A program made the position numbers and the translations under genes. The notes under the pieces were generated by a model. It did not search any database, had not been told where the DNA came from, and saw only the letters and a list, made by a program, of their open reading frames with translations. 64,000 bases of DNA from Methanolobus sp. ZRKC5 (lineage in GTDB: Archaea > Halobacteriota > Methanosarcinia > Methanosarcinales > Methanosarcinaceae), in assembly GCF_038446525.1 (NCBI RefSeq), contig NZ_CP151792.1:2418001-2482000 (forward strand). The letters run 5' to 3'. Positions 8,403 through 31,365 of this stretch are shown in pieces; within the stretch, counting starts at the first letter, position 1; each line of letters opens with the position of its first letter.

Positions 8403-9548
8403 GAGGATTTCGATATTCCCTCATTTTAGATCATTAAAGTATTCAAACTCAATTATATCCTCTCATTTTTTATCATTTTGTTTATTTCTCTTCATTAATC
8501 CTTATTTTTAGTATAGCTCCCGCTATCCTAAATTACTCCTTTGGTTTTTAGTGTCCTCAATTGATGCAGATTAAAACAAAAAGCTGTCATCAACATTTTT
8601 GCATTCACTCTTTCTACAGTTGTAACAAGAACCTTTCTGGTTTTAAATATTTCTTTTGTCACTGCATACACTCTTTCGCAAGGGACTCTTTTCACACTTA
8701 TTCTTTCATTTCTGAGGATATCCATTATTCCTAAAGGATGTCCTCTTACAGCTCGTTGCATTGTTGCTGCAAAACCTTTTGCTATTGCTCCAAAATATCC
8801 TTTATCTCTATACACCACTTCACCCTTTTCAGACAGATCAACCTGTGAATCGTGAAGTGATGCAGTTGTTGTCTCAAATCTTCTGATTAGTTCATAATCC
8901 TTATCAATAATTGTATGAAGTTTGTATCCAAAGTGAGATTTACCATTTTTCTTAGTCCAGGTTCCATCTTTGCTTCTTCTTGTTTTCGCATCTTTTCCTC
9001 TGAGTACATCTGCTTTTGCATGTCCTGGATCTGAGTGAATAAAAGTTGCATCCTGGATCATTCCTTTTTTAATCTTCAAACCAAGAGCATCAAGCTGATT
9101 CTGCATTTCATCCCACACCGCTTTTTCTTTACCATTGTCGATAATTCTCTTCCTGAATGACCAGACAGTTGTACTGTCTGGTACATATTCAGGAAATCCC
9201 AGGAATTTCCTAAAGGATATCCTGTCAATACACTGCTTTTCAAGCTCAGCATCAGAAAGACCATGCCATTGTTGCAGAACAAGCATCTTGAACATTACAA
9301 TAACATCAGCTTCAGGCCGTCCGCCTGAAGCTGTTCTGTTTATGTACATTGACTCCAGAATAGGGCGAAAAGGCTTCCAATCTACTAAATATTCAATTTC
9401 AGCAAGCTTATCTCCGACAGATTGGAGACGCTTATATTCTTCATTTAAGGCAAAATCAGTAAAAGAATCCATAATAGTAAATTTGCTTTGCTATTATTTA
9501 AATTTTATTAAATTGTATGAGTATTGATGGTAGTTTCTCGAAATCCTC
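8403..9548 (-). mobile_element. IS5-type insertion sequence, copy 1 (1146 bp)
   Basis: Complete element bounded by terminal inverted repeats GAGGATTTCGA. Copy 2 has the longer GAGGATTTCGATA because of one base difference at the right end here. It is flanked by the 4-bp direct repeat TCTT (8399-8402 and 9549-9552). It contains one transposase gene on the minus strand. A second copy with the same length and identical protein lies at 20603-21748 in the opposite orientation. It is inserted in the last 14 codons of a membrane-protein gene. Confidence 0.92.
8528..9472 (-). CDS. IS5-family DDE transposase (copy 1)
   Basis: A 314-residue transposase with an N-terminal helical DNA-binding region (GGRPEADVIVMFKMLVLQQW, typical of the DUF772-like domain of IS5 transposases) and a DDE catalytic core. 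The DDE core shows DATFIHSDPG, YRDKGYFG and a late acidic/basic motif around VPCERVYAVTK. It catalyses cut-and-paste or copy-out movement of its own element. The protein sequence is identical to that at 20679-21623, so both copies are likely young and functional. Confidence 0.93.
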   Translation of the reverse strand: MDSFTDFALNEEYKRLQSVGDKLAEIEYLVDWKPFRPILESMYINRTASGGRPEADVIVMFKMLVLQQWHGLSDAELEKQCIDRISFRKFLGFPEYVPDSTTVWSFRKRIIDNGKEKAVWDEMQNQLDALGLKIKKGMIQDATFIHSDPGHAKADVLRGKDAKTRRSKDGTWTKKNGKSHFGYKLHTIIDKDYELIRRFETTTASLHDSQVDLSEKGEVVYRDKGYFGAIAKGFAATMQRAVRGHPLGIMDILRNERISVKRVPCERVYAVTKEIFKTRKVLVTTVERVNAKMLMTAFCFNLHQLRTLKTKGVI

Positions 9549-12397: not shown

Positions 12398-13861
12398 TCA
12401 TCCTATTAATTCCAGATTCTGTTTGAGGATCTGAGAAAATACCTCATTCTTTTTAACATCAGACTTTGCTTCCTCAAGACTCATTTTAAGACCTGAGATC
12501 GAGTTTTCAAGACTCTGTATATAGATAGTCTGCTGTTCCATTTTGTTATTGAGCTTCTTGATATCAAGATTCTGACGATGGATAGTGACATGGTTACCAA
12601 TTTCATTGTTAGTTTTCTCAACCATTTCTTCAAGCTCTTTTCTTTTGGATTCCATCTCTGCAAGAGTTTTTTCCATACTCCCTTCAAGTCTTGTATTTTC
12701 CTCACTTCTAAACCTTAGCTTTTCATCCTCAGCTTCAAGCTCGGTTTTCCTCTCTTTCAGAGCCTTCATCTCATCCTGGAAAGCAAGTTCCTTTTCTTTG
12801 TGAAGCTGGATATTTTCCTCATGCTTTAACATGAGTTTTTCATCCTCACCCACAAGCTCGGCTTTCTTATCCTCCAGAGCCTTAACCTCGTTCTGGAAAG
12901 CTATTTCCTTCTCCTTATGAGCCCTTACGCCTTCTTCATACTTTAGCCTGGAAGCTTCAAGTTCATCTGTCTTTGGACCAAGTTCAACGAGCTCTGTATG
13001 TATGTTTTCTTTTATTATCCCTATTGAAGAACGTTTTTCAGTGAGTAGTGCTTCTTCATCCTCAAGTTCAGACCTGAGTGTCTCAATATCCGCACGCTTG
13101 CGATTGAGCTCTTTCAATTCAGAATAATAACTGGACTTTATGGCCTCAACGGCTGCAGGATAAGTAATATCTGACAGCTCAAGGGAGATTTCCTCACCTG
13201 CTGAAAGTTTTTCCTCTAAAGACCGGCATTTTTCATCAAGCTCATTTTTCTGCTGCTTGTACTGTTTTAGCTCATTATCGTAGGCCGATCTTAGGGAAGA
13301 TAATTCTTCCATTTCTGAAGTGTACTCAGCAAGTTCTTTTTCATATCCAATTCTTGAGTCTTCAAACTCTTTAGCCTGAACTTCAAACACAGAACGCTTT
13401 TGTTCAAATGCAGTAATCTTCTTTTCGAGTTCTGCTGTCTGCTCAGGAGGGATGGACCTTTCAGCCCTCTGCACAGCAGACTTAATTATCGCGCATTTAT
13501 TCCTAAGCACTTTTTCCTGTTCGGAAAATTGACTTTTGAGTTCATCAAGTTCTTTCTGTTTTTCCTCATATTCACTGATATCGGATTCATAGCGCGTTTT
13601 TATTTCAGAAAGCACAGACTCTTTTTGGACAAGGTACTCTATCTCTGATTCCGGCACACTGTGAACAGATTCCTGATTTGCAGGGACATGAACTGAATTA
13701 TCCCCTGGCATGTAGTTTTGCGGACTGGAGGAAGATACATCTTGTGCTACCCCCTTTTCCCTATCATCTGTTGCAATGGGTTTTCTATAAATATTCGGAG
13801 TGAAAACCTTAGATGATTTTTCAGACTTCTTTTTTCCCCCTGACCAATTAGATGAGTTCAT
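12398..13861 (-). CDS. Long coiled-coil protein, partner of MamK-like actin
   Basis: A 487-residue soluble protein. The first ~70 residues are polar and low-complexity (NSSNWSGGKKKSEKSS, then a Ser/Pro-rich stretch). Nearly everything from about residue 75 to 480 is predicted coiled coil, rich in Glu, Lys and Leu, with near-repeats such as EENIQLHKEKELAFQ. No enzymatic motif is seen. Its ATG overlaps the stop of the upstream actin-like gene by four bases, so both are co-translated. The pairing and shape suggest a filament adaptor, cross-linker or spacer, comparable in role to coiled-coil partners of bacterial actins. This role is inferred; I do not recognise a named family. Confidence 0.75.
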   Translation of the reverse strand: MNSSNWSGGKKKSEKSSKVFTPNIYRKPIATDDREKGVAQDVSSSSPQNYMPGDNSVHVPANQESVHSVPESEIEYLVQKESVLSEIKTRYESDISEYEEKQKELDELKSQFSEQEKVLRNKCAIIKSAVQRAERSIPPEQTAELEKKITAFEQKRSVFEVQAKEFEDSRIGYEKELAEYTSEMEELSSLRSAYDNELKQYKQQKNELDEKCRSLEEKLSAGEEISLELSDITYPAAVEAIKSSYYSELKELNRKRADIETLRSELEDEEALLTEKRSSIGIIKENIHTELVELGPKTDELEASRLKYEEGVRAHKEKEIAFQNEVKALEDKKAELVGEDEKLMLKHEENIQLHKEKELAFQDEMKALKERKTELEAEDEKLRFRSEENTRLEGSMEKTLAEMESKRKELEEMVEKTNNEIGNHVTIHRQNLDIKKLNNKMEQQTIYIQSLENSISGLKMSLEEAKSDVKKNEVFSQILKQNLELIG

Positions 13862-14898
13862 AATATCAATTCCTTATCCTGTTTCCCGGCACGTAGTTGT
13901 TGCCAGAATTCCAGCGGCATGTTTCTGGCAAGTTCCAGTGCACCTTCAGAAATACCAAACGTAGAGTCTAAGTCAAGGAAAACTTTACCTCCACCAAGCT
14001 CTTTAAGTTCGTGCTCAATAAAGGTACCAAGGCCAGGCAGATTACTTGTACCTCCAAATATGTGGATATTGTTCCGTATGGACTCACGTATCTCAGGATC
14101 CACATCGGATAACATCCTGGTAATCCCTGAAACAACATCAGTTAACACAAACTCACATGAGATCTGCATTTCTTCAGCTATTGATTCCTGAATAGTGCCA
14201 TTTTCAAGGGGAATGTCTACAACACATTGATCTGAACAAGAACCAAGATATCCATACTCTTCTTTCCAACCCATAGCAAGTTCTTCTGTGATCCTTGAAT
14301 CCGGCCATCTTTCATTGATAAGCTTGACTATTTCACTATCGATATTTTTTCCGGCACATGGAAGGCTCAGGCAATCATCTTCTTGCGGGATATTGCTGTT
14401 AATAACGCAAATGTCTGTTTTATGAGAACCTATATCCACTATTAGTCCCCCTTCCAGAAGCGATTTTTTGTAAGCTATGCAAAAAAGTTCATCTACAACC
14501 ATTGCACCTGAAAATATCTCACTGAAAAGCTCCAGAAGCTTGATTTTGTATTCCCTGCCAGCATTTGAAGGAACACCTATCATTGCATAGGTACTATCTT
14601 TAGCAGGATTAACAGCATGTTTATTAAGAAAGTGTTTTAAAAACTTCTTAAAATGAAGAACATCATCTTCTTCTTTCAATTCACTTTTAAGGAAGTATTG
14701 GATAGTGCCATTTTCCAATGCCACAGCCTCTTTTCCGGATAGTATGCTCTCTTCAGGGTCTTCACTATCTTTCTGCAAAAAAGCTATTGCAGTTCTCTCA
14801 GAGAATTTTTTACCATCGCTGGTGCAAACCGATGTTTTGAACATACCCACGTCTATCCCAAGATACAGGCATCTACTATTGTTGTCAAACTCCTCCAT
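13858..14898 (-). CDS. MamK/MreB-type actin-like ATPase
   Basis: A 346-residue actin-superfamily protein whose whole length resembles the magnetosome actin MamK as I recall it. Features are phosphate-1 GIDVGMFKTSVCTSDGKKF, AMIGVPSNAG and the VVDELF segment carrying the presumed catalytic Glu (MamK: VVSEPF). Phosphate-2 is VDIGSHKTDICVI, the adenosine motif is FGGTSNLPGLG, and the tail is STFGISEGALELARNMPLEFW (split here for length). The phosphate loops are not canonical (GTSHT-like and GAGTTD are replaced by GMFKT and GSHKTD), so nucleotide handling may differ. The family forms ATP-dependent cytoplasmic filaments that position organelles or plasmids. A coiled-coil gene overlaps downstream and polyphosphate genes lie upstream on the same strand. 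It is not a magnetosome cluster. Confidence 0.8.
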   Translation of the reverse strand: MEEFDNNSRCLYLGIDVGMFKTSVCTSDGKKFSERTAIAFLQKDSEDPEESILSGKEAVALENGTIQYFLKSELKEEDDVLHFKKFLKHFLNKHAVNPAKDSTYAMIGVPSNAGREYKIKLLELFSEIFSGAMVVDELFCIAYKKSLLEGGLIVDIGSHKTDICVINSNIPQEDDCLSLPCAGKNIDSEIVKLINERWPDSRITEELAMGWKEEYGYLGSCSDQCVVDIPLENGTIQESIAEEMQISCEFVLTDVVSGITRMLSDVDPEIRESIRNNIHIFGGTSNLPGLGTFIEHELKELGGGKVFLDLDSTFGISEGALELARNMPLEFWQQLRAGKQDKELIL

Positions 14899-14948: not shown

Positions 14949-14999
14949 ATGGAATTATTTCCATGCTATGGAATCTTATTAAATCAGTATTTATATATT
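14949..14999 (-). promoter_or_regulatory. TATA box and inverted-repeat operator upstream of the actin-like gene
   Basis: On the minus strand TAATATATAA (14990-14999) is a good TATA box, predicting a start near 14965. Overlapping that point are three alternating half-sites, ATGGAA (14949-14954), TTCCAT (14959-14964) and ATGGAA (14968-14973), forming two nested palindromes. This arrangement is expected for a repressor site, but the regulator is unknown. Confidence 0.45.
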
Positions 15000-15131
15000 A
15001 TGAACATGGGATTTCATTCTATGGCGATGAATAAACATAAAAAAAATAGAGAAAAGGTAAGAAATAGATACTGTCGCCATTAAACAAGCTTTCTAGTTCT
15101 ATGAACAAAATAAGATATATATTCAGCTGAA

Positions 15132-16025
15132 TTATATATAACTCTCTTTATGCTTTTTGTACAAAACGTGTATGATACCATCTGCAAGACCCAGTTGAGG
15201 TACATGCATATGATTGATATTGCCCCATTTCATAACAGAATAATATATTTTTGAAGCAGGTACGATAACATCAGCCCTGTCCGGACGCAGACCTATTTTT
15301 GTTATACGCTGCTCCAGTGTAAAACCTTTAAGATATTTATTAAGATCCTTAATATCCTTATCCATTAGAAGAGTACCATCCTTCCTGCCGGACATACGAA
15401 AGAGCTTGTTGATATTGCCACCGCTTCCAATAGCATAATCTGGCATGTGATCACGGGTCACACTTTTCACCCAGCGTTTCATCTCATTCCAATCATGTTT
15501 TGTAACAATGCCTTCAAGCATTCGAATGGTACCGATATTAAATGACCTGTAGGCAAAAACCTTCCCGCCTTTAAAGAGTATCAATTCAGTACTACCACCA
15601 CCCACATCAATGTGGAGATAGGTCGAATCACTGCTTCCAAGTAGTTTTTCTATACGATTTGAATAAATTATTTTTGCTTCTTTCCTTCCGCTTATAACTT
15701 TAAGGTCAATACCACTTTTTTTCTTTATCAAAGAAACGATCTCATCGCTATTTTCAGCCTCTCTCATTGCTGAAGTTGCACATGCCATAAAATCAATTGG
15801 TTCATATGCATCCATAAGATGTCGAAATGCGATCATTGTACTTACAAGATGAGAAACCTTTTCCGGGGATATATTATTATGAACGAATGCATCTTCACCA
15901 AGGCGGATGGGCATTCGCATAAAGGATATCTTTTCATAAACTGGATCTACGCCTTCAGAATCAACTCTTGACAAAAGCAACCTCACCGCATTCGAACCAA
16001 CATCTATAGCCGCAAATTTCATCAA
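15132..16025 (-). CDS. ppx: Short exopolyphosphatase Ppx/GppA family (ASKHA domain only)
   Basis: A 297-residue Ppx/GppA-type phosphatase that hydrolyses terminal phosphates of polyphosphate or pppGpp-like molecules. It shows the phosphate-1 motif AAIDVGSNAVRLL, ATSAMREAEN, LHIDVGGGSTELILF and AIGSGGNINKL. Full-length bacterial Ppx has about 500 residues with a C-terminal HD domain; this one stops after the ASKHA domain. A separate CYTH-HD protein at 25469-26722 carries an HD domain of that kind. The start overlaps the ppk1 stop (ATGATG), giving a tight ppk-ppx operon, the classical arrangement for polyphosphate turnover. Confidence 0.88.
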   Translation of the reverse strand: MMKFAAIDVGSNAVRLLLSRVDSEGVDPVYEKISFMRMPIRLGEDAFVHNNISPEKVSHLVSTMIAFRHLMDAYEPIDFMACATSAMREAENSDEIVSLIKKKSGIDLKVISGRKEAKIIYSNRIEKLLGSSDSTYLHIDVGGGSTELILFKGGKVFAYRSFNIGTIRMLEGIVTKHDWNEMKRWVKSVTRDHMPDYAIGSGGNINKLFRMSGRKDGTLLMDKDIKDLNKYLKGFTLEQRITKIGLRPDRADVIVPASKIYYSVMKWGNINHMHVPQLGLADGIIHVLYKKHKESYI

Positions 16026-18091
16026 ACATCTCCATTGTTCAATTGCCTTTCAAGGAAATCATAAATATCGTTCTGAGTACGACAGGGTTTTTCCCCATCT
16101 GTTCTGTATTTATTATCCTGAAGGTCGTTGATTATTCTCGCCTTTCTGTTGTCCATAAACTGTATGTTCATGTATTCTTTCAACTCTTCCTGAAGAGACC
16201 TATCATATATGGGGGTTGCAACTTCCACACGTCTGTCAAGATTTCTTACCATCCAGTCAGCTGATGAAATAAAATATCTTTCATCATCATTGTTGCAGAA
16301 AATGAAAATACGTGAATGTTCAAGGTATCTGTCAACGATGCTGATGACCTCGATATTCTCACTGAGCCCTTTAACACCAGGAACAAGTGAACATATACCC
16401 CTGATGACCAGTTTTACCCTGACCCCGGCCTTGCTGGCATCATACAATTTATTGATCATCTCGCTATCCACAAGACTATTCATCTTAGCATGAATGTACG
16501 CAGGCTTCCCTGATCTTGCATTATCTACTTCATTTTCAATATATTTTTTGAACGTCTTGCGCATTTGAAGGGGAGCAACAATGAGATGTTTGTACTCATA
16601 TACTTTATAATTATGACTGAAGAAATCAAAAGCCTTTTCCACTTCAAACGTAAGATCAGGATTTGCAGTCATAAGCATATGGTCACAGTAGAGCTTTGCA
16701 GTAGATTCATTGAAATTACCTGTGCCGATACATGAATAACGAACAGGAACATCATCCTCATTCCTGGTAATATGGCAAAGTTTTGAATGTACTTTCAGAC
16801 CAGGTACGCCATCAATTATTCTTGCACCCGCATCTTCGAGTTTCTGGGTCCAGTAAATATTAGATTCCTCATCAAACCTTGCCTGAAGCTCAATTACAAC
16901 AGTAACAGTTTTGCCGTTTTTAATTGCATTAATAAGTGCATTGATAACATTGGAATTTTTGGCAACCCTGTAAAGAGTGATCTTTATGCTTGAAACATGC
17001 GGGTCAATTGCTGCCTCTCTTAGCAGATCGATGAAATAATCAAAGGATTGATATGGATAATGGAGCAAAATATCATGCCCCTTTATAGCACTAAAGAGAC
17101 TCTTGTGACTTACGAAGTATTTATGTGGCAAAGGATGTTTTGGCTCATAATAGAAGGAATCCGAACCAATTTTGGGAAAGCTCATGAAATCCTTTGCATT
17201 ATGATATTTGCCACCGGGAACAAGATTTTCGAAATTTTCGATACCCAGCCTCTTCAGAGTAAAATCAAGCAGGTAGTAAGGCATGTCCTTGTCATAAACA
17301 AAACGAACGGGCTGGCCTTTTTTTCTTTCCTCAAGACTCGCGGATACCTTTTCAAAGAAACTTTTAGTTACATCATCATCAATGTCGAGTTCAGCATCCC
17401 GTGTAAGCTTGATCGTATACGCAGCGATTGAATCATAATCAAAAATTGAAAAAATGTCATCAAGACCAAAACGAATCACATCATCCAGCATTATGACACA
17501 TTTCCTGTCGCCTGAATCTGGAAGATTTATATATCGGGGGAGTACATCAGCAGGAACCTCGATAAGAGCAAATTTTGAAGTTTGTGGATCCCATTTTTTC
17601 TGGACATCAATTAAAAGGTAAAGAACCTGATTTTTTAGATAAGGGAAATCGGGGATATCCTTCAGTATGACAGGAATGAGACGTGGCCTTACTTTTTCCA
17701 GGAAGTATTCTTTAACAAAAGCTTTCTGGCTACCATCGAGTTGTGTTTCATCAACAATGAAGATGTTATGCTCTGCCAATTCCTTTGTTAATCCAGTGAA
17801 CACTTTATCAAAATCATCGCGCAGTGTCAGTACCGTTTTATGTACCTGTTTCATGACTTTTTTCGGTGCAACTCCAACCACAGCTTTGGACTTCACCCCC
17901 GCATCTATCATGCGCTGCAGAGTCCCAACCCTTACACTGAAAAACTCGTCAAGGTTCGAAGAAAAAATACCAAGAAACTTCAAACGTTCCAGTAATGGGA
18001 CTTGTGGGTCTTTTGCTTCCTGAAGGACTCTTTCATTAAATGAAAGCCAGCTTATTTCCCTGTTGATATAATCATCTACTTCTTTGGACAT
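16022..18091 (-). CDS. ppk1: Polyphosphate kinase 1
   Basis: A 689-residue PPK1 that polymerises the gamma-phosphate of ATP into long-chain polyphosphate reversibly. Domain order is the N-terminal helical domain (NREISWLSFNERVLQEA), the head domain, then two phospholipase-D-like C domains. Catalytic region GLKVHSKLCHITR contains the His that is autophosphorylated; IGTGNFNEST, the ARFDEESNIYW loop and AKMNSLVD are also typical. I chose the start MSKEVDDYINREIS at 18091; the 32-codon extension to 18187 is hydrophobic and unlike family starts. The gene overlaps ppx by four bases. TATA-like sequences lie in the AT-rich 18120-18240 region. Confidence 0.95.
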   Translation of the reverse strand: MSKEVDDYINREISWLSFNERVLQEAKDPQVPLLERLKFLGIFSSNLDEFFSVRVGTLQRMIDAGVKSKAVVGVAPKKVMKQVHKTVLTLRDDFDKVFTGLTKELAEHNIFIVDETQLDGSQKAFVKEYFLEKVRPRLIPVILKDIPDFPYLKNQVLYLLIDVQKKWDPQTSKFALIEVPADVLPRYINLPDSGDRKCVIMLDDVIRFGLDDIFSIFDYDSIAAYTIKLTRDAELDIDDDVTKSFFEKVSASLEERKKGQPVRFVYDKDMPYYLLDFTLKRLGIENFENLVPGGKYHNAKDFMSFPKIGSDSFYYEPKHPLPHKYFVSHKSLFSAIKGHDILLHYPYQSFDYFIDLLREAAIDPHVSSIKITLYRVAKNSNVINALINAIKNGKTVTVVIELQARFDEESNIYWTQKLEDAGARIIDGVPGLKVHSKLCHITRNEDDVPVRYSCIGTGNFNESTAKLYCDHMLMTANPDLTFEVEKAFDFFSHNYKVYEYKHLIVAPLQMRKTFKKYIENEVDNARSGKPAYIHAKMNSLVDSEMINKLYDASKAGVRVKLVIRGICSLVPGVKGLSENIEVISIVDRYLEHSRIFIFCNNDDERYFISSADWMVRNLDRRVEVATPIYDRSLQEELKEYMNIQFMDNRKARIINDLQDNKYRTDGEKPCRTQNDIYDFLERQLNNGDV

Positions 18092-18249
18092 AAGAATCAG
18101 TTTTTTAAATTTTGAAAACGTAAGAATACTGTCGTATTTTAATAAAACTACAGCTATCCTATTATATAGCACTTTATACAGATTCATATATAGTCATACA
18201 TAGTACAATATAGATTTTTATAGCCAATACCAGTCTGAAGGAATCCTCT

Positions 18250-20166
18250 TCAGGAATTATAGATACCTGCTACTGCCTGCGAGAACCTTATACTGAAATC
18301 AGGATCAATGACCCTGGACCAAACTTCCGGGAAGGAATTCATCAGGTTCTGAAGGTCCTGTTTCTTGTATTCCATATAAGCATCAACACCCGGATAATCC
18401 CCAAGTCCGTTTGAAACAGGCACCTTCTTTTTATCCGTTTCACCCCACCTACCATATTTCTCAAAGTTCCCAAGAAGTTCTAGTGCAACCACTGTGTCAT
18501 GCATATCCCCCAGATTATCCTGAAGTGCCTTCAAATCCTTTATCAGGTCCCTGGATTCAGAACCAAGTGCTTCCCTGAAGAACTCAAGAGTGTAGCGTAG
18601 TATTTTCACATCAATTCTGAGCTGATGATATTTTTCAATATCCGGATCGATCATTGTTTCATCAGAAACAAGCTCTTCATATGCCCTTACAGCCGCAAAC
18701 TGTGTGTACAAGAGAACAGGTAACACATCCATGACCCTGCCTGGAACAGGTTCTCTATTCTTCTTTACAGACTTCATTTTCCAGAACTTTTTATTCAGCA
18801 GATAAGCAGCAAAGTTCTTCTTGAACTTGTTGTATTTGACATCATCCAGATATACAAGCATGCTACCACGCTGTTTTGCCTTTTCGATCAGAATGGAATC
18901 TACAAGTGGGTCCATTTCTGCTCTGCTTTCAGGTGGCTTATCCTCAAGATAATGTTCGATCTTCTCAAGGAAAACATCCAGATCACGTACAGAACCAAGT
19001 ACTCTTCTTGTAGTTTTGACGTTCTTATAATGAGAGAACATCTTTTTCATTTCAAGGTAGTTCTCAAGGACCTCAACTGCAGAACGCATACGCATTGCAG
19101 CAACCCGCATGTCGTGCAGTTCTTCGATGTCTTTTCCAACTTTGGTACCCCTCTCATGCTCTATCATTACTCCGAAGTGGAACATGAGTATCTTGTGCGC
19201 TGCTTCACGCATCGTATCAGTTGCCTTGATATTGGTCTTTTCCAGAGAACGGAATTCAGAGAACGGAATAACAGGAACGACTGTAGTTGATAATCCCCTG
19301 GTTTCCGTTACAGGCGCAAAAGTCGGCTCAACATTTTCATCTGAACCATCTTCAGGCAGTCCATTGTCCTCTGTTTCCAAAACATCAACTATTTCGGGAA
19401 ATTGTGTCGTTTCCATAGCTGTTGGTTCATTGAAACTATCATCTTCAAAATGAACATTTTCTTTCATCTCTGCATTAATTGAAGGATTATGAATTGTGTT
19501 TTTCTCAGGGATCATAGTTTCCTCAGTTTGTCCCATTATTTGTGGCTCTGGCTGTTTTTCTTCAGAAACTTTATCGTTTACAATAAAATGGTCATATCTT
19601 CCATTGGTATCAGTAAGGAAGGAAGGCTCATAGGAACCTGATGTTATATTAGTCACCATAATACCCGCAAAGGTTGCAAGTACGGAACGATCATTAAATT
19701 GACTATATTCATTACTGATATCAGGCTTTTGTTTCTGTGCCACTGTTGCTTGCGTTTCTGTGCCTGTAAAGGCCTGCAGGAAGTAATTGACAAAAATATT
19801 GATCAGTAACAGAAAAATACCCACTGAATAGAACATTATCACATAGGACACCTTTGGGTATGTCCAGCTTTCAGGGAAAGAGAATGTGAAAATAAGAAGT
19901 CCGGTTACAGAGAGCAATATACCTGTTATGAACGAATAACTTCGTGAAAATCGCTGGCGCATGCCCGCAAGAATGATGCCTGCAAGAATGAACAATATCC
20001 CGGCCCCCAGAAGGAAGCAAACTGTCAGTATAACTTCCGGACTGGAATTACGACTAAGTCTGCTCACCATAGCAAACAGAAGGCCAGTCATGCAAAATAC
20101 CAGACCGAACAAAAAACCAAGCGATGCAACTAAGGAGTACTTCTTAACAAGCATGTTCGATGACAA
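18250..20166 (-). CDS. Membrane-anchored CHAD-domain (polyphosphate-binding) protein
   Basis: A 638-residue protein. Four membrane segments lie in the first ~135 residues and an acidic, low-complexity linker runs to about 310. A CHAD domain fills the rest: conserved ELHDMRVAAMRMRSAVEVL and YHQLRIDVKILRYTLEFF each carry the His/Arg/Lys surface that binds polyphosphate in known CHAD structures. CHAD proteins target to polyphosphate granules, so this one could tie polyphosphate to the membrane (inference). The first codon is TTG behind GGGGAG; an ATG four codons later is possible. The ferredoxin gene ends 21 bp upstream, so the two are probably co-transcribed, and ppk1-ppx follows on the same strand. 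Confidence 0.85.
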   Translation of the reverse strand: MSSNMLVKKYSLVASLGFLFGLVFCMTGLLFAMVSRLSRNSSPEVILTVCFLLGAGILFILAGIILAGMRQRFSRSYSFITGILLSVTGLLIFTFSFPESWTYPKVSYVIMFYSVGIFLLLINIFVNYFLQAFTGTETQATVAQKQKPDISNEYSQFNDRSVLATFAGIMVTNITSGSYEPSFLTDTNGRYDHFIVNDKVSEEKQPEPQIMGQTEETMIPEKNTIHNPSINAEMKENVHFEDDSFNEPTAMETTQFPEIVDVLETEDNGLPEDGSDENVEPTFAPVTETRGLSTTVVPVIPFSEFRSLEKTNIKATDTMREAAHKILMFHFGVMIEHERGTKVGKDIEELHDMRVAAMRMRSAVEVLENYLEMKKMFSHYKNVKTTRRVLGSVRDLDVFLEKIEHYLEDKPPESRAEMDPLVDSILIEKAKQRGSMLVYLDDVKYNKFKKNFAAYLLNKKFWKMKSVKKNREPVPGRVMDVLPVLLYTQFAAVRAYEELVSDETMIDPDIEKYHQLRIDVKILRYTLEFFREALGSESRDLIKDLKALQDNLGDMHDTVVALELLGNFEKYGRWGETDKKKVPVSNGLGDYPGVDAYMEYKKQDLQNLMNSFPEVWSRVIDPDFSIRFSQAVAGIYNS

Positions 20167-20602: not shown

Positions 20603-21748
20603 GAGGATTTCGATAAACTACCATCAATACCCATACAATTTAATAAAATATAAATAATAGCAAAGCAAATTTACTATTATGGATTCTTTTACTGATTTTG
20701 CCTTAAATGAAGAATATAAGCGTCTCCAATCTGTCGGAGATAAGCTTGCTGAAATTGAATATTTAGTAGATTGGAAGCCTTTTCGCCCTATTCTGGAGTC
20801 AATGTACATAAACAGAACAGCTTCAGGCGGACGGCCTGAAGCTGATGTTATTGTAATGTTCAAGATGCTTGTTCTGCAACAATGGCATGGTCTTTCTGAT
20901 GCTGAGCTTGAAAAGCAGTGTATTGACAGGATATCCTTTAGGAAATTCCTGGGATTTCCTGAATATGTACCAGACAGTACAACTGTCTGGTCATTCAGGA
21001 AGAGAATTATCGACAATGGTAAAGAAAAAGCGGTGTGGGATGAAATGCAGAATCAGCTTGATGCTCTTGGTTTGAAGATTAAAAAAGGAATGATCCAGGA
21101 TGCAACTTTTATTCACTCAGATCCAGGACATGCAAAAGCAGATGTACTCAGAGGAAAAGATGCGAAAACAAGAAGAAGCAAAGATGGAACCTGGACTAAG
21201 AAAAATGGTAAATCTCACTTTGGATACAAACTTCATACAATTATTGATAAGGATTATGAACTAATCAGAAGATTTGAGACAACAACTGCATCACTTCACG
21301 ATTCACAGGTTGATCTGTCTGAAAAGGGTGAAGTGGTGTATAGAGATAAAGGATATTTTGGAGCAATAGCAAAAGGTTTTGCAGCAACAATGCAACGAGC
21401 TGTAAGAGGACATCCTTTAGGAATAATGGATATCCTCAGAAATGAAAGAATAAGTGTGAAAAGAGTCCCTTGCGAAAGAGTGTATGCAGTGACAAAAGAA
21501 ATATTTAAAACCAGAAAGGTTCTTGTTACAACTGTAGAAAGAGTGAATGCAAAAATGTTGATGACAGCTTTTTGTTTTAATCTGCATCAATTGAGGACAC
21601 TAAAAACCAAAGGAGTAATTTAGGATAGCGGGAGCTATACTAAAAATAAGGATTAATGAAGAGAAATAAACAAAATGATAAAAAATGAGAGGATATAATT
21701 GAGTTTGAATACTTTAATGATCTAAAATGAGGGAATATCGAAATCCTC
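20603..21748 (+). mobile_element. IS5-type insertion sequence, copy 2 (1146 bp)
   Basis: Bounded by inverted repeats GAGGATTTCGATA and flanked by the 4-bp direct repeat TATA (20599-20602, 21749-21752). It has the same length as copy 1 and only a few base differences outside the gene. It sits about 70 bp upstream of the ferredoxin-CHAD operon start and about 55 bp upstream of the MgtC-like gene, so it has split their divergent promoter region. Confidence 0.93.
20679..21623 (+). CDS. IS5-family DDE transposase (copy 2)
   Basis: A 314-residue transposase, identical in protein sequence to the one at 8528-9472. DDE motifs DATFIHSDPG and YRDKGYFG are intact. The gene fills most of the element, and the start MDSFTDFAL lies 76 bp from the left end. 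Confidence 0.93.
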   Translation: MDSFTDFALNEEYKRLQSVGDKLAEIEYLVDWKPFRPILESMYINRTASGGRPEADVIVMFKMLVLQQWHGLSDAELEKQCIDRISFRKFLGFPEYVPDSTTVWSFRKRIIDNGKEKAVWDEMQNQLDALGLKIKKGMIQDATFIHSDPGHAKADVLRGKDAKTRRSKDGTWTKKNGKSHFGYKLHTIIDKDYELIRRFETTTASLHDSQVDLSEKGEVVYRDKGYFGAIAKGFAATMQRAVRGHPLGIMDILRNERISVKRVPCERVYAVTKEIFKTRKVLVTTVERVNAKMLMTAFCFNLHQLRTLKTKGVI

Positions 21749-23156: not shown

Positions 23157-24665
23157 ATGCTTGAAAATGTAGACCTCTCAAAAAGTATCAGCAAAGAAGA
23201 ATACGATAATGTAATTGAAAATTTGAAGATACGAATTGGGGAACTGCAGAGAAAAGCATGGAAAATGGATATACCTATCATTATAGTTTTTGAGGGATGG
23301 CATGCATCCGGCATGACCGATATAATAAACAAGTTCCTTTTAACCCTCAATCCAATGGGATTTAATCTTTACACAACCGGAAAACCCTGTTATCAGGAAG
23401 AACAAAAACCTCTTTTGTGGCGATTCTGGACAAAGATACCCAAAAAAGGCAGCATTGCTATTTTTGACAGGAGCTGGTATCGCAGGATAACCGTCGAGCA
23501 CAGCAGCAAAGGTAAAGCAAATGATAAAATGTCTAAATGTCTTGAAGGATCGAACTATTTTGAAAGACAGTTGACAGATGAGGGATATCTGCTCATCAAA
23601 TTCTTCCTGCACATAAGTAAAGAAGAACAGGGAAAAAGATATCGTGAGATGAAAAAACAGGGTATACCAATGTTCATCGTTGAAGAAGAAGAAGAAGAAC
23701 AGGAATACCTGAATGATTATGACAAACACCTGCCTCTGATAGAAAGCATTCTGGAAAGAACAGACCGGACTTCTGCACCATGGACCATTGTAGAATCAGA
23801 AGACAAGAACTTTGCAACCATTAAAATACTTGCAAAGGTAATCGAATCTATTGAAAATAAGATACAAAACAACGAAAATGAGATAAAGATAAGTCAAAAT
23901 CACCATAATGAAAATTGTATCATTCCCAACATAGATTCATCAATACTTGAAAAGACCGATCTGGACAAAAGTCTCACTTATAAAGAATATAAAAAAGAGA
24001 AAAAAATATGCCAGAAAAAGATAACGCAACTCCAGTATGAACTTTTTAAGCACCGTATACCCTTAATATGTGTATTTGAGGGATGGGATGCGTCAGGAAA
24101 AGGAGGAGGTATAAGGCGGCTTGCCCAGAAATTAAATCCCAGACTTTATCAGGTAATTCCTGTTGGCGTTCCCTCACAAACGGAGATTTCACACCACTAT
24201 CTTTGGAGATTCTATAACGAAATACCTGAAGCAGGTCATATAGCCATATATGACAGAAGCTGGTACGGAAGAGTACTTGTTGAAAGAGTTGAAAACCTCT
24301 GCGGTAACCAGGAATGGAAACGTGCTTACAGGGAGATTAATGAATTTGAGGAAACGCTTGCCAATTATGGCACTATCATCATCAAATTCTGGGCCCATAT
24401 TGATAAGGAAGAACAACTTAAAAGGTTCAAGCAAAGGGAAAATACCTCCCATAAACAGTGGAAAATAACTCCTGACGACTGGCGTAACCGTGAAAAGTGG
24501 AACCTCTACAGGGATGCTGCGGATGAAATGCTACAGAAAACAAGCACATCCTGGGCACCGTGGACAATTGTGGAATCAAACGACAAGTATTACTCAAGGA
24601 TTAAGATATTCCATACTGTTATTGACCGCATAGAAGAGGAGTTAAAACAGAGAGGAATTCAATAG
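23157..24665 (+). CDS. Tandem-domain polyphosphate kinase 2 (polyP:AMP phosphotransferase type)
   Basis: A 502-residue protein of two fused PPK2 domains (about 1-235 and 260-500). PPK2 enzymes use polyphosphate to phosphorylate nucleotides. The second domain has an intact P-loop (GWDASGKGG, about 308-316), lid and Walker B-like IAIYDRSWYGRVLVERV. The first has a degenerate loop (GWHASGMTD, 47-55, no Lys) but keeps FDRSWYRR. This matches two-domain class II enzymes, in which only the C-terminal domain is active and the product is ADP from AMP (family knowledge). TATATAAATA at about 23120, some 35 bases before the ATG, suggests a nearly leaderless mRNA. Its 3' end lies in a 34-bp direct repeat. 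Confidence 0.9.
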   Translation: MLENVDLSKSISKEEYDNVIENLKIRIGELQRKAWKMDIPIIIVFEGWHASGMTDIINKFLLTLNPMGFNLYTTGKPCYQEEQKPLLWRFWTKIPKKGSIAIFDRSWYRRITVEHSSKGKANDKMSKCLEGSNYFERQLTDEGYLLIKFFLHISKEEQGKRYREMKKQGIPMFIVEEEEEEQEYLNDYDKHLPLIESILERTDRTSAPWTIVESEDKNFATIKILAKVIESIENKIQNNENEIKISQNHHNENCIIPNIDSSILEKTDLDKSLTYKEYKKEKKICQKKITQLQYELFKHRIPLICVFEGWDASGKGGGIRRLAQKLNPRLYQVIPVGVPSQTEISHHYLWRFYNEIPEAGHIAIYDRSWYGRVLVERVENLCGNQEWKRAYREINEFEETLANYGTIIIKFWAHIDKEEQLKRFKQRENTSHKQWKITPDDWRNREKWNLYRDAADEMLQKTSTSWAPWTIVESNDKYYSRIKIFHTVIDRIEEELKQRGIQ

Positions 24666-27113: not shown

Positions 27114-27743
27114 TCAACCAACTTTTCGATATAGCTGTGCGTTTGCAACAACCGGCTCAAAGAATTTCTGCATTTGTGGAGGAACTTTCTGAGTTTGTTC
27201 AGTTGCAAAATAACCCCCATCCAAAGAATCATAGAACATCCTGAGGACTTCTATCTTTTTTTCGTCCTTAAAATGCAAAAGGACATTCTTGCAGAGAATG
27301 AGGTTAAAACCTGTCCTGACAGGTTTCAGATCCAAAAGATCATTTTTTGTGAACTCGACGCATTTCCTTATTTCTTTGGAAATCTGGAAGTTGCCAGGCT
27401 CATCTGTCGGTGAGAAATATTTGTTCAATATAGGCTCTGGTATCCTCTGAACCATTTCCCGGGGATATATGCCTTTTTTGATTATGTCCCCAAACAGGTT
27501 ACTATTATCTATATCAGTTGCATGTATCTTGACATTCCGGAAGGTCATACCCATATTCTCTCTCAATGTAATTGCCAGTGAGTAAGGTTCAGGACCCATA
27601 GCACAACCAGCATCCCATATGTGAATATAGTGTCTGCTTCGAAGTTCAGGAATTACATAGTCCCTGATCATTTCCAGTGTTTGCATATCCCTGAAAAAAT
27701 AAGTGAAAGCTATAATTATCCTCTCCTTTTGCCACACAGACAT
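27114..27743 (-). CDS. CheR-type methyltransferase lacking the N-terminal helical domain
   Basis: A 209-residue SAM-dependent methyltransferase of the CheR family, which methylates glutamates of chemoreceptors. The methyltransferase domain is complete: FFRD at the entry, SAM motif WDAGCAMGPEPYSLAI (GCAMGPEPY replaces the usual GCSTGEEPY), KIHATDID, YFSP, NLILCKNVLLHF. The usual ~70-residue N-terminal helical domain that binds receptors is missing; an AT-rich promoter-like sequence directly precedes the ATG, so this is not a start error. It lies next to cheW and an MCP gene on the same strand, 95 bp downstream of cheW. Confidence 0.78.
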   Translation of the reverse strand: MSVWQKERIIIAFTYFFRDMQTLEMIRDYVIPELRSRHYIHIWDAGCAMGPEPYSLAITLRENMGMTFRNVKIHATDIDNSNLFGDIIKKGIYPREMVQRIPEPILNKYFSPTDEPGNFQISKEIRKCVEFTKNDLLDLKPVRTGFNLILCKNVLLHFKDEKKIEVLRMFYDSLDGGYFATEQTQKVPPQMQKFFEPVVANAQLYRKVG

Positions 27744-27838
27744 AAAAAAATATATTTACAATTTCTTTCACAAAATGAAACTAATAATAGAACAAGTAAG
27801 AAATAGATAATAAAAAGAAAATATCGGTTGCCTGAATA

Positions 27839-28330
27839 TCAGGCAAGACTTGCGATATTTTCAACTTCTTTTTTGTTCAATACCTTAGCAAGGTCAAGAA
27901 GTATCAGAAGGCGATCATCCAATTTACCTACGCCCGTGATATATTGCTTGCTTACACTCGACGTGACAAGTTCAGGAGCGGGGTCGATGCTTGAAGCATT
28001 TATCCTCAATACTTCATTCACAGAATCAACTATCATACCCACGACATTGTCACCGATCTCAACGACAATTATACGTGAATGCTCATCTACATCCTTGGAA
28101 CTAAGATTGAAGCGCTTATCAAGATTTATAACCACAATGATCTTGCCACGAAGATTGATAACACCCTCTACATATTCTGGAGATTGTGGTATCTGTGTGA
28201 TCTCAGGCATCCTTATAATTTCCTGGACCTTCATGATCTCGACTCCAAATTCCTCACCACCTAGCTGGAAAACTACCATTTGTAACAGTTCATCGGTGGA
28301 ACCTGTTCCAGATATTAAATCATCTGCCAT
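27839..28330 (-). CDS. cheW: Chemotaxis coupling protein CheW
   Basis: A 163-residue CheW-domain protein that couples chemoreceptors to the kinase CheA. Family features are VFQLGGEEFGVEIMKVQEIIR, the conserved VEGVINLRGKIIVVINLDKRF and DSVNEVLRI. Fifteen extra polar residues precede the domain. It begins 17 bp after the upstream MCP gene, so the pair is co-transcribed and presumably dedicated to each other. No cheA, cheB or cheY is in the window. Confidence 0.93.
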   Translation of the reverse strand: MADDLISGTGSTDELLQMVVFQLGGEEFGVEIMKVQEIIRMPEITQIPQSPEYVEGVINLRGKIIVVINLDKRFNLSSKDVDEHSRIIVVEIGDNVVGMIVDSVNEVLRINASSIDPAPELVTSSVSKQYITGVGKLDDRLLILLDLAKVLNKKEVENIASLA

Positions 28331-28346
28331 ATTATATCACATTCCA

Positions 28347-31163
28347 TTAAACAAGAGCATGTTCCATTTTTTCAATTGATTCGGTTTTTTCTGAATTATC
28401 AGTCTGTCCACCTGACGTGGACGTGGAATCCAGTACAAATTTATCGACGACCACTTTCATTTCACCTGCAAGACTTGAGAGATCCTCTGCTGAATGTGAA
28501 AGTTCCTGCATTGTGGCACTTTGTTCCTGAACAGCAGCAGATGCTTCCTCAGTTCCGGCAGCCGATTCCTCGGAAATTGCACTGACCTCTTCTATTGAAG
28601 AAGTTACTTCTTCTATGGAAGCAGATTGTTCCTGTGCAGCAGCTGCAATATCCTGAACCATATTTGCTATCTGGTTACCTGCCTCTACTACATCTTTAAT
28701 GACTACTGCCACTTCGTTAAGAGCAGTTGCTCCGGTTTCAACCTCTACAGATCCCTGATTCATGGATGTAACTGCATTTTGAGTACCAACCTGAATTTCT
28801 GTGATCAGTGTTGCAATCTGTTTTGCGGCATTACCTGAATCCTCAGCAAGTTTTCTAACCTCATCTGCCACAACAGCAAATCCACGGCCATGCTCACCTG
28901 CACGTGCTGCTTCAATTGCTGCGTTGAGTGCAAGAAGGTTGGTCTGGTCTGCAACATTAGTGATAAGATTTACAATTTCACCTATCTGCTTGGACTTGCC
29001 ATCAAGTTCCATTATAACACTTGAAGACTCTGCAGATGCACTCTTTATGGATTCCATCTTGGCAAGAAGATCATTGGTTACAGAACCGAGGTTGTTTATC
29101 AGTTCGTTTGAATCCTTTGCATTTTCTGCTGCCTTCTGTGAGTTTGTAGCAACTTCCTGCACAGTCATGGTCATGTCCACCATTGCACGTGACACTTCTT
29201 CTGTCTTTGAGGCCTGGCTCTGAGCACCTCTTGAAATCTCAGATACTGTATCAGCTACCTGGTAAGATGAAGATGACATCTGCTCAACGGATGCAGACAT
29301 TTCTTCCGCTGTCGATGCAACGTTCCTTGAGCTGTCGTGAACCATGGAAACTACTTCATTTAATGACATTCTGGTGTTTTCGACACCATCAGTCAGGACT
29401 TTGAACTCGCCAACACCCTGAATTTGAACAGCTCTGCTAAGATCATTATTAGATATGGCTTCAAGAACATCGGAAGAATCTGCAATAATTGCCTGCAGGT
29501 TTTCTCCAAAATTATCAAGTGAATCAGAAAATACCTTAAAGTCACCTTTACTTGTGAAACTGAACCTCGCATCTAGTTCACCTTCGGAATAATCATTGAC
29601 TATGCGCATTGCCTCATTCAGAGGGGTCACAAGTGCATCTACAGCCTGGTTGACAGTGTTGATAGCATCATTAAAGCGTCCTTCGTAGATGGACCCATCA
29701 GCCCTGTAGTCAAGGTTTCCAGCCTCTGCAGCATTGCCAAGTTTAATGAACTCATCCACAATTCCTTCTATGTTGCTCATCATTGAGATATAACATGGGA
29801 TAAGTTCATCGTTGTCTGATCGCTTACCTACTTTCTTGAGTCCAGCAAGATCACTCAGATCACCTACAGCGATTTTCTTGTTCACGCCCATAACAGTCAG
29901 GATCCTGTCACGAATACCATTGGTGGCTGATGCCACTTCAGCGAATATCCCCTGATAATTACCTTCAACAGTTCTTGTATGGTCATTATTTTCTATCAAT
30001 TGCAAAACCTCATTGCTCTCTACAAGACCGGCAAGACCAGCAATACAGTCGTTGATGTTGTTCTTGATATGATTAAAATCACCCTTATATTCAGCAGTTA
30101 TTCTCTCAGGTACTTCTCCCCTAGATATCTGCTCAACATATTCAGCAGTCATGTTCAATGGGTTGATAACAGCATCAAAAGCATCGTTGACAGTCGTGAT
30201 AGCTTCGTTGAACAACCCCTGGAAATGTGATGCATCTGCCCTGTAGTCAAGCTTTCCGGTTTCAGCAGCATGACCTAGACTGATAAATTCATCTGCCATA
30301 CCCTTTACATTTTCCATCATTCCAATGGTATATGGAAGAAGTTTATCATTCTCAGAACGCTTGCCTACTGCTCTGTATTTTTCAAGATCGCTGAAATCTC
30401 CTTTGGTCATGTATTCAAAGGTACGCTGAATATTCTGAAGCCTCTTGCAAACTTCATTTACAGCATAGGCATTATCTTTGAATGTCCCATCGTACTGACC
30501 TTCAACACTTGTCTCAAAGTCGTTGACAGCCAGTTTAAGCAGAACATCAGTGCTCTCGTTAAGAGGCTTGGCGATGGAATCAAGTGTATTATTGAGATTC
30601 TCGATAATGGTCCTGAACTCTCCACCATGGCGGGAAGCATCAGCACGGACATCTACCTTGCCCTGAGAACCTGCTGTTGCGAGCATCTCTGAATCGACAA
30701 TCAAGGCATTGATAGCATCAACACAAATATTGAGATTGTTTTTAAGATCGTTGAAGCTACCCTTGAACTCCTTTGTTATCTTTGGCGGGATATCGCCATT
30801 TGAAAGGCGGGTTACATATTTGGAAGCTGCCATGAAAGGAATAACAATGGCATCTATCATTGAGTTGATACCTGTAACAAGTTCTTTAAAGTCACCTTCA
30901 AAGTTCTCAGGATCTGCACGAACATCAAGATGTCCTTCAACAGTAGAGTTTACAAGCAAAGTAATCTGTTCCGAGAGTTTTTCCTGTTGCTCTACCTCAT
31001 TCTTCCACCCTGTAGCTTTGTCCAGAAACGCATTCAATGCTTCTGACATCTCACCCTCTAATCCATTGGTCTGAGGACTCAACCTTGAATCTGAATTGCC
31101 ATTATCAATGGAAGTCAGAACATCAATTATCTCATTGTATAGTTTGTTATTTTTCCCTAGCAT
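28347..31163 (-). CDS. Soluble methyl-accepting chemotaxis protein with tandem HAMP-like repeats
   Basis: A 938-residue chemoreceptor with no membrane segment. The first ~590 residues hold at least five HAMP/helical-bundle-like repeats of the form LDYRADAS...F...[16 protein letters not shown], often with the linker [18 protein letters not shown]. The C-terminal signalling hairpin has the highly conserved tip [20 protein letters not shown] and [16 protein letters not shown], flanked by Ser/Gln/Glu methylation-helix sequence. It is likely a cytoplasmic sensor cluster component signalling through the adjacent CheW. I chose the start [12 protein letters not shown] at 31163, which matches the start of the broken paralogue (MLGMNDKL). 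Confidence 0.9.
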
Positions 31164-31365
31164 GTTTTCACCCTGCCGTATCAAAATTGATGCTCGGCGT
31201 AAGTTTAACTTTTGCACATTTAGACCTATAAATTTGCATTCGAACATACAATTCTATATAATTATAATTAGGCTTATTTAAAGATAAACACGATATTATA
31301 AAAGTATACCTACACAAAATATATATGTACAAATATAAAATAAGATTGGGTAATAAAGAACTAAT

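Follow-up and report, generated by a model that had tools for sequence, protein, structure and literature searches.

The window (the whole 64,000-nucleotide stretch of Methanolobus DNA that was analyzed here) contains an actin gene and, overlapping it, the gene of a coiled-coil partner, next to polyphosphate, Che, and housekeeping genes (Table 1). The actin reading frame reported in the earlier note was recovered at exactly the same coordinates; it runs on the minus strand, from 14898 down to 13858, and the plus-strand reading of this interval is full of stop codons. The protein had been likened to MamK, a bacterial actin that aligns magnetosomes (magnetic organelles); no magnetosome genes were seen in the neighborhood. 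Two identical genes for a 314-aa transposase, in opposite orientation (8528-9472 and 20679-21623), flank the actin/polyphosphate block, and a further copy lies near a gene discussed below, that of the second tail protein.

Table 1. Features of the actin locus and related genes (window positions unless a locus is named)
Feature	Position	Strand	Remarks
Coiled-coil partner, 487 aa	12398..13861	-	ATG overlaps actin stop by 4 bases
Partner C-terminal tail, 75 aa	12401..12625	-	homologous in all three actin-bearing genera
FTPNIYRKP motif near partner N-terminus	13778..13804	-	sole pattern match in this genome
MamK-like actin, 346 aa	13858..14898	-	ORF, NCBIfam, PDB, tree, AlphaFold model
Phosphate loop 2, D155-I-G-S-H-K-T-D162 (MamK D161..D168)	14413..14436	-	K160 at MamK T166, the actin V159 position
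Catalytic Glu, E137 (MamK E143)	14488..14490	-	kept here, replaced in 10/26 genus sequences
Phosphate loop 1, D16-V-G-M-F-K-T22 (MamK D17..T23)	14833..14853	-	K21 at MamK H22; D and G invariant, rest variable in genus
Promoter-like block CATAATATATAAATACTGATTT upstream of actin	14981..15002	-	at most 2/22 mismatches in 26/26 genus sequences; single copy in window
Ppx exopolyphosphatase	15132..16025	-	233 bp away; outside module
Polyphosphate kinase 1	16022..18187	-	
CHAD-domain membrane protein	18250..20166	-	
Polyphosphate kinase 2	23157..24665	+	
CheR, CheW, multi-HAMP chemoreceptor	27114..31247	-	beyond polyphosphate block; directly upstream of actin in congeners without polyphosphate genes
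Second tail protein gene	L160:9000-9929 (G000:C1 about 1817500-1818430)		no known family

The actin gene is the only one of its kind in the 3.05-Mb genome, is chromosomal, and keeps its position across the genus. It was detected in 25 of 26 congeners, and in the exception (G010) the contig breaks off 215 bp past ppx, at the expected start of the actin gene. Outside the genus, the actin is present in two other genera of the same order (hereinafter g12 and g16); of the 136 genera represented among 393 sampled genomes of the phylum, only 3 have it; a scan of genome contigs yielded one close relative only. A viral origin was considered and rejected, the g16 actin having no relative in viral contigs in a search that detects close relatives only. 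Identification with plasmid ParM was also rejected: the annotated plasmid matches are MreB or rod shape-determining proteins.

The resemblance of this actin to MamK is not due to chance. The MamK of AMB-1 aligns with it at residues 9-335 (phmmer E 3e-43, 151 bits), in keeping with the whole-length alignment previously made by eye, and the C-terminal tail GALELARNMPLEFW is present in the translation. The nearest solved structure is MamK (3e-43; 28% identity), with BeeR next. The profile search proposed in the earlier note ranked MamK (210 bits) ahead of BeeR (103), Salactin (40), and MreB (33). The top NCBIfam match is the MamK profile NF040964 (5.7e-62, 209.7 bits), for which the curated cut-off is 400 bits; the g12 and g16 relatives score 372-387 bits against the same profile. 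All other scores are also below the respective cut-offs: 103 vs 530 bits for BeeR (NF053558), 39.7 vs 400 for Salactin (NF053533), 32.6 and 21.1 vs 293 and 366 for MreB (NF010539 and TIGR00904), and 24 and 16 vs 31.8 and 175.9 for FtsA (PF14450 and TIGR01174). A search of this genome (G000) for Salactin (E 1e-15) returned no match.

An AlphaFold model of the actin, made from 28 sequences (pLDDT 85, pTM 0.83), best matches the MamK filament (Z 36.3, rmsd 2.5, 319 residues), followed by BeeR (Z 33.9) and actins (Z about 31.8). In the phylogeny, likewise proposed earlier, which took in one MamK and one BeeR sequence with Salactin left out, the archaeal proteins group together in a single clade (99/99), joined to MamK on a branch that is not fully supported (91/78; sister branch not starred); the alternative join to BeeR is less likely, although not rejected (AU p 0.07). 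Trees that include Salactin are unstable: it forms a very long branch and breaks up the archaeal group. Given the NCBIfam and PDB rankings, the match of the model, and the tree, the description of the protein as MamK-related is well supported, and its placement with MamK rather than with MreB, ParM, FtsA, or Salactin stands on profiles, solved structures, and the tree. The label MamK in the curated sense is not supported, with the score under the cut-off and a neighborhood free of magnetosome genes.

The nucleotide-binding site is partly invariant and partly rebuilt. In the numbering of AMB-1 MamK, D17, G19, D161, G163, and G288 are invariant in the genus set of 26 sequences. Around these residues, loop 1 has changed from D17-x-G-T-S-H-T in MamK to D-V-G-M-F-K-T, and loop 2 from D161-I-G-A-G-T-T-D to D-I-G-S-H-K-T-D, such that the altered loops GMFKT and GSHKTD noticed previously are indeed in the translation. 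Throughout the genus, T20-S21-H22 mostly become M/T-F/Y/S-K, G165 is replaced in 25 of the 26 sequences, and the basic residue in loop 2 is a genus-wide trait (T166 to K or R in 25/26); the g12 and g16 relatives and MamK have T. The catalytic Glu (E143), described in the earlier note as kept, is kept in the window protein (E137) but not in the genus as a whole, where 16 sequences have E, 8 have G, and one each has D and S; both g12 sequences have D. The site of the g16 relatives is fully canonical (GTNHT or GTDHT, DIGAGTTD, and E). The tree requires at least four changes at E143 and two for the K/R state. By simple motif alignment, MamK positions 165 and 166 correspond to actin G158 and V159, both of which are changed here. 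The V159N substitution renders actin filaments more stable, and the structure of this variant (1yvn) is among the structural matches of the actin model.

Although the catalytic Glu is dispensable in the genus, the actin gene is under purifying selection. In most pairs, dN/dS is 0.10-0.22 for the actin and 0.10-0.21 for the partner, and a pair of species with Gly at E143 in each gives 0.12 for the actin, so the gene is not decaying; the actin of one outlier pair (L051/L052) shows 0.45. Taken at face value, the residues at the site suggest that hydrolysis would be slow and the filaments stable.

The partner gene lies directly downstream of the actin gene in all 31 loci examined in the three genera, frequently with a 4-base overlap; in three g16 loci (L056, L059, and L060), the actin stop codon is followed immediately, and in frame, by the partner ATG. 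Partners are 200-209 aa long in g16 and 888-1940 aa in g12 (the 888-aa ORF is broken by masked bases). Between genera, the tails align with E of 4e-7 (g12) and 3e-6 (g16), compared with 0.06-0.85 for five other windows of the same coiled coil used as hhalign controls. The tail profile matches 32 of 60 relatives, all within the three MamK-bearing genera, and finds nothing at 1e-4 in the remaining 28; the actin is present in 31 of the 60, and in the single genome in which the two disagree, the contig stops at the expected place of the actin (Fisher's p 2e-16 for co-occurrence, a value that ignores shared ancestry). In 25 of 27 genus genomes, the profile also detects a second tail-bearing coiled-coil protein (about 285 aa), encoded at another site. 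At the other end of the protein, partners from g16 and g12 start with an ArlD/E domain (PF04659; 3e-16, 4e-13, and 1e-10). The window partner lacks this domain, and the genus partner carries instead the FTPNIYRKP motif, which occurs once per genome in 25/25 MamK-bearing congeners and has no match in any other genus searched. A fused actin-partner model of a g16 relative (AlphaFold, read through the stop) reached a pTM of 0.59 and gave no confident docking.

Several observations concern ArlD/E domains and the partner locus at large. In this genome, a 968-aa protein (L129:8174-11080; G000:C1:1074257) that combines an extended low-complexity region with an ArlD/E domain at its C-terminus is encoded apart from the canonical arlCDE, and similar long ORFs are found in several archaellated genera of the family. 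Two g12 loci (L057 and L058) encode an ArlD/E domain in genomes with no archaellin and no other ArlD/E gene, in which CheA, CheW, CheR, CheC, and a chemoreceptor are present. In L047 and L048, an 893-aa ORF is located between the partner gene and pyrF.

The actin-partner pair probably has its own promoter, as suggested by a 22-bp block that precedes the actin start by about 80 bp, has a TATA-like core, and is kept in all 26 genus sequences, including those of members without polyphosphate genes. The block was not found near the arl genes or the second-tail genes. The actin promoter contains (window 15000-15008) CATGTTCAT, the reverse complement of ATGAACATG, and of 13 orthologous promoters of the second tail gene (L160-L173), 12 carry the core TGRACATG a short distance upstream of their TATA-like box (0.055 expected per region). 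Possibly, this TGRACATG-type element, shared by the actin and second-tail promoters, is a common operator; the orthologues are not independent.

The neighborhood bears on the cargo of the putative filament, and polyphosphate granules, which the filament might organize or segregate as MamK does magnetosomes, suggest themselves: the actin gene lies beside ppk1, ppx, the CHAD gene, and ppk2, the pair comes after Fd-CHAD-ppk1-ppx in about 20 congeners, and CHAD domains bind polyphosphate (PMC6537752). However, the pair persists in four congeners without PPK1 or PPK2 (G005, G012, G015, and G023, all 99% complete), two of which show dN/dS of 0.12 and 0.15 between them, and a relative, G033, has CHAD-ppk1-ppx without the actin, which makes polyphosphate unlikely as an obligate cargo. 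The actin tree further implies at least three changes of PPK state, there is no PPK1 match in the g12 and g16 MamK carriers, the actin has a promoter block of its own, and the unrelated pyrF is an equally constant neighbor on the other side; altogether, we consider a granule-positioning role very unlikely. Upstream of the pair, the four PPK-less congeners have an operon of the chemoreceptor-CheW-CheR type. All 10 MamK carriers tested, g12 among them, have CheW, and the only g16 genome tested that lacks the actin has none, a pattern drawn from 11 genomes in all; Methanosarcina acetivorans, a control, has CheW and no MamK match, so that chemotaxis does not depend on such an actin and the link is at best one-way. 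ArlCDE binds CheF, linking it with the motor of the archaellum, and possibly touches the polar cap (PMC8978795). Together with the ArlD/E domain of the g12 and g16 partners, these data make chemosensory or polar (motility) machinery our leading guess for the cargo, and a guess only. The more specific proposal of an organizer of the chemosensory/archaellum pole, in which the adaptor joins MamK-like filaments to chemotaxis output via the ArlD/E domain, draws on the same evidence and appears possible but doubtful: the genus partner is devoid of this domain, none of the eight g12 che-cluster proteins tested is CheF, and archaellins are absent in g12. Archaella are thus not an obligate cargo, and the archaellum was rejected as a universal one.

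The other alternatives concern the actin itself. It could be a conventional dynamic MamK-like ATPase in which the new Lys residues make up for lost phosphate contacts and hydrolysis continues. In this species, the equivalents of E143 and D161 are both kept, as is the Glu in 16 of the 26 genus sequences, but the Glu is lost in the other 10 while the gene as a whole is not relaxed, the G158 and V159 positions of actin are both altered, and other actins lose ATPase activity and dynamics when the counterparts of MamK D161 or E143 are mutated (PMC5059902); we regard continued dynamics as rather unlikely. Degenerate loops and loss of the Glu would also fit a non-polymerizing pseudo-actin that acts as a nucleotide-sensing regulator, but the full-length actin fold predicted by the model, the conserved MamK-like C-terminus, and the obligate coiled-coil partner render such a protein quite improbable. 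Finally, a DNA-partitioning actin of the ParM or Alp type, to which a weak PHROG partition-protein match (2e-6) might point, is extremely unlikely for a chromosomal, single-copy gene with a stable position in the genus and no recognizable DNA-binding partner.

The explanation that we favor, with somewhat better than even confidence, is a cytoskeletal scaffold module that consists of a stable MamK-type filament and dedicated coiled-coil adaptors, namely, the partner and the second tail protein. The actin would polymerize as MamK does, the adaptor tail would bind the filament, and the other end of the adaptor would bind cargo, through the ArlD/E domain in two genera and the FTPNIYRKP motif here. 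ATP would be bound but hydrolyzed slowly or not at all, so that the filament would serve as a stable scaffold and would not treadmill. An extended version, which we think unlikely, is that this actin has dispensed with ATP-driven turnover: the basic residue would replace the phosphate sensor, the filament would be locked, and the dynamics would be passed to the tail-bearing adaptors that tether chemosensory machinery (by ArlD/E in two genera and the short motif here). Whichever version applies, a MamK relative with a defined partner in methanogens makes it possible to test what this branch of actins does in general, apart from magnetosomes. Canonical loops in g16 and rebuilt ones in the genus, where the Glu is either kept or lost, make up a natural series, in effect an experiment on how much of its hydrolysis site an actin can lose while selection still retains it. 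The partner is a concrete candidate for a link that connects an actin of archaea with a domain of the archaellum type; to our knowledge, there is no earlier one.

Among known systems, MamK itself (NF040964; PDB 5ljv and 5ljw) shares with the window actin the fold over its whole length, the C-terminal G-A-L-x-L-A...P-x-x-W tail, and the invariant phosphate-binding Asp and Gly. Unlike MamK, the window actin has rebuilt loops, a score under the curated cut-off, a Glu that is dispensable in the genus, no magnetosome genes nearby, and a coiled-coil partner with a distinct tail family. BeeR of Verrucomicrobiota is, similarly, a MamK-related actin of a non-magnetotactic organism, but the window actin attains with BeeR only half its MamK score, and in BeeR the N-terminus is extended and disordered and the ATP site is canonical (PMC11929497). 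Salactin of haloarchaea is a euryarchaeal actin reported to be nearest to MamK (PMC10746226), whereas the window actin scores 40 bits against the 400-bit Salactin cut-off and its genome has no detected Salactin. The ArlCDE of the euryarchaeal archaellum (PMC8978795) shares the ArlD/E domain with the g12 and g16 partners, but in this genome the canonical arlCDE stands as a gene of its own within the arl operon, and the window partner lacks the domain. In Desulfovibrio magneticus RS-1, MamK works with the coiled-coil proteins Mad20, Mad23, Mad25, and Mad26, which build and position magnetosome chains (PMC12748827). There, too, a MamK-type actin is combined with coiled-coil proteins, and the Mad set organizes an organelle; no magnetosomes are expected in this methanogen, but in outline, with one actin and several coiled-coil adaptors, the actin-partner module may resemble the MamK-Mad system.
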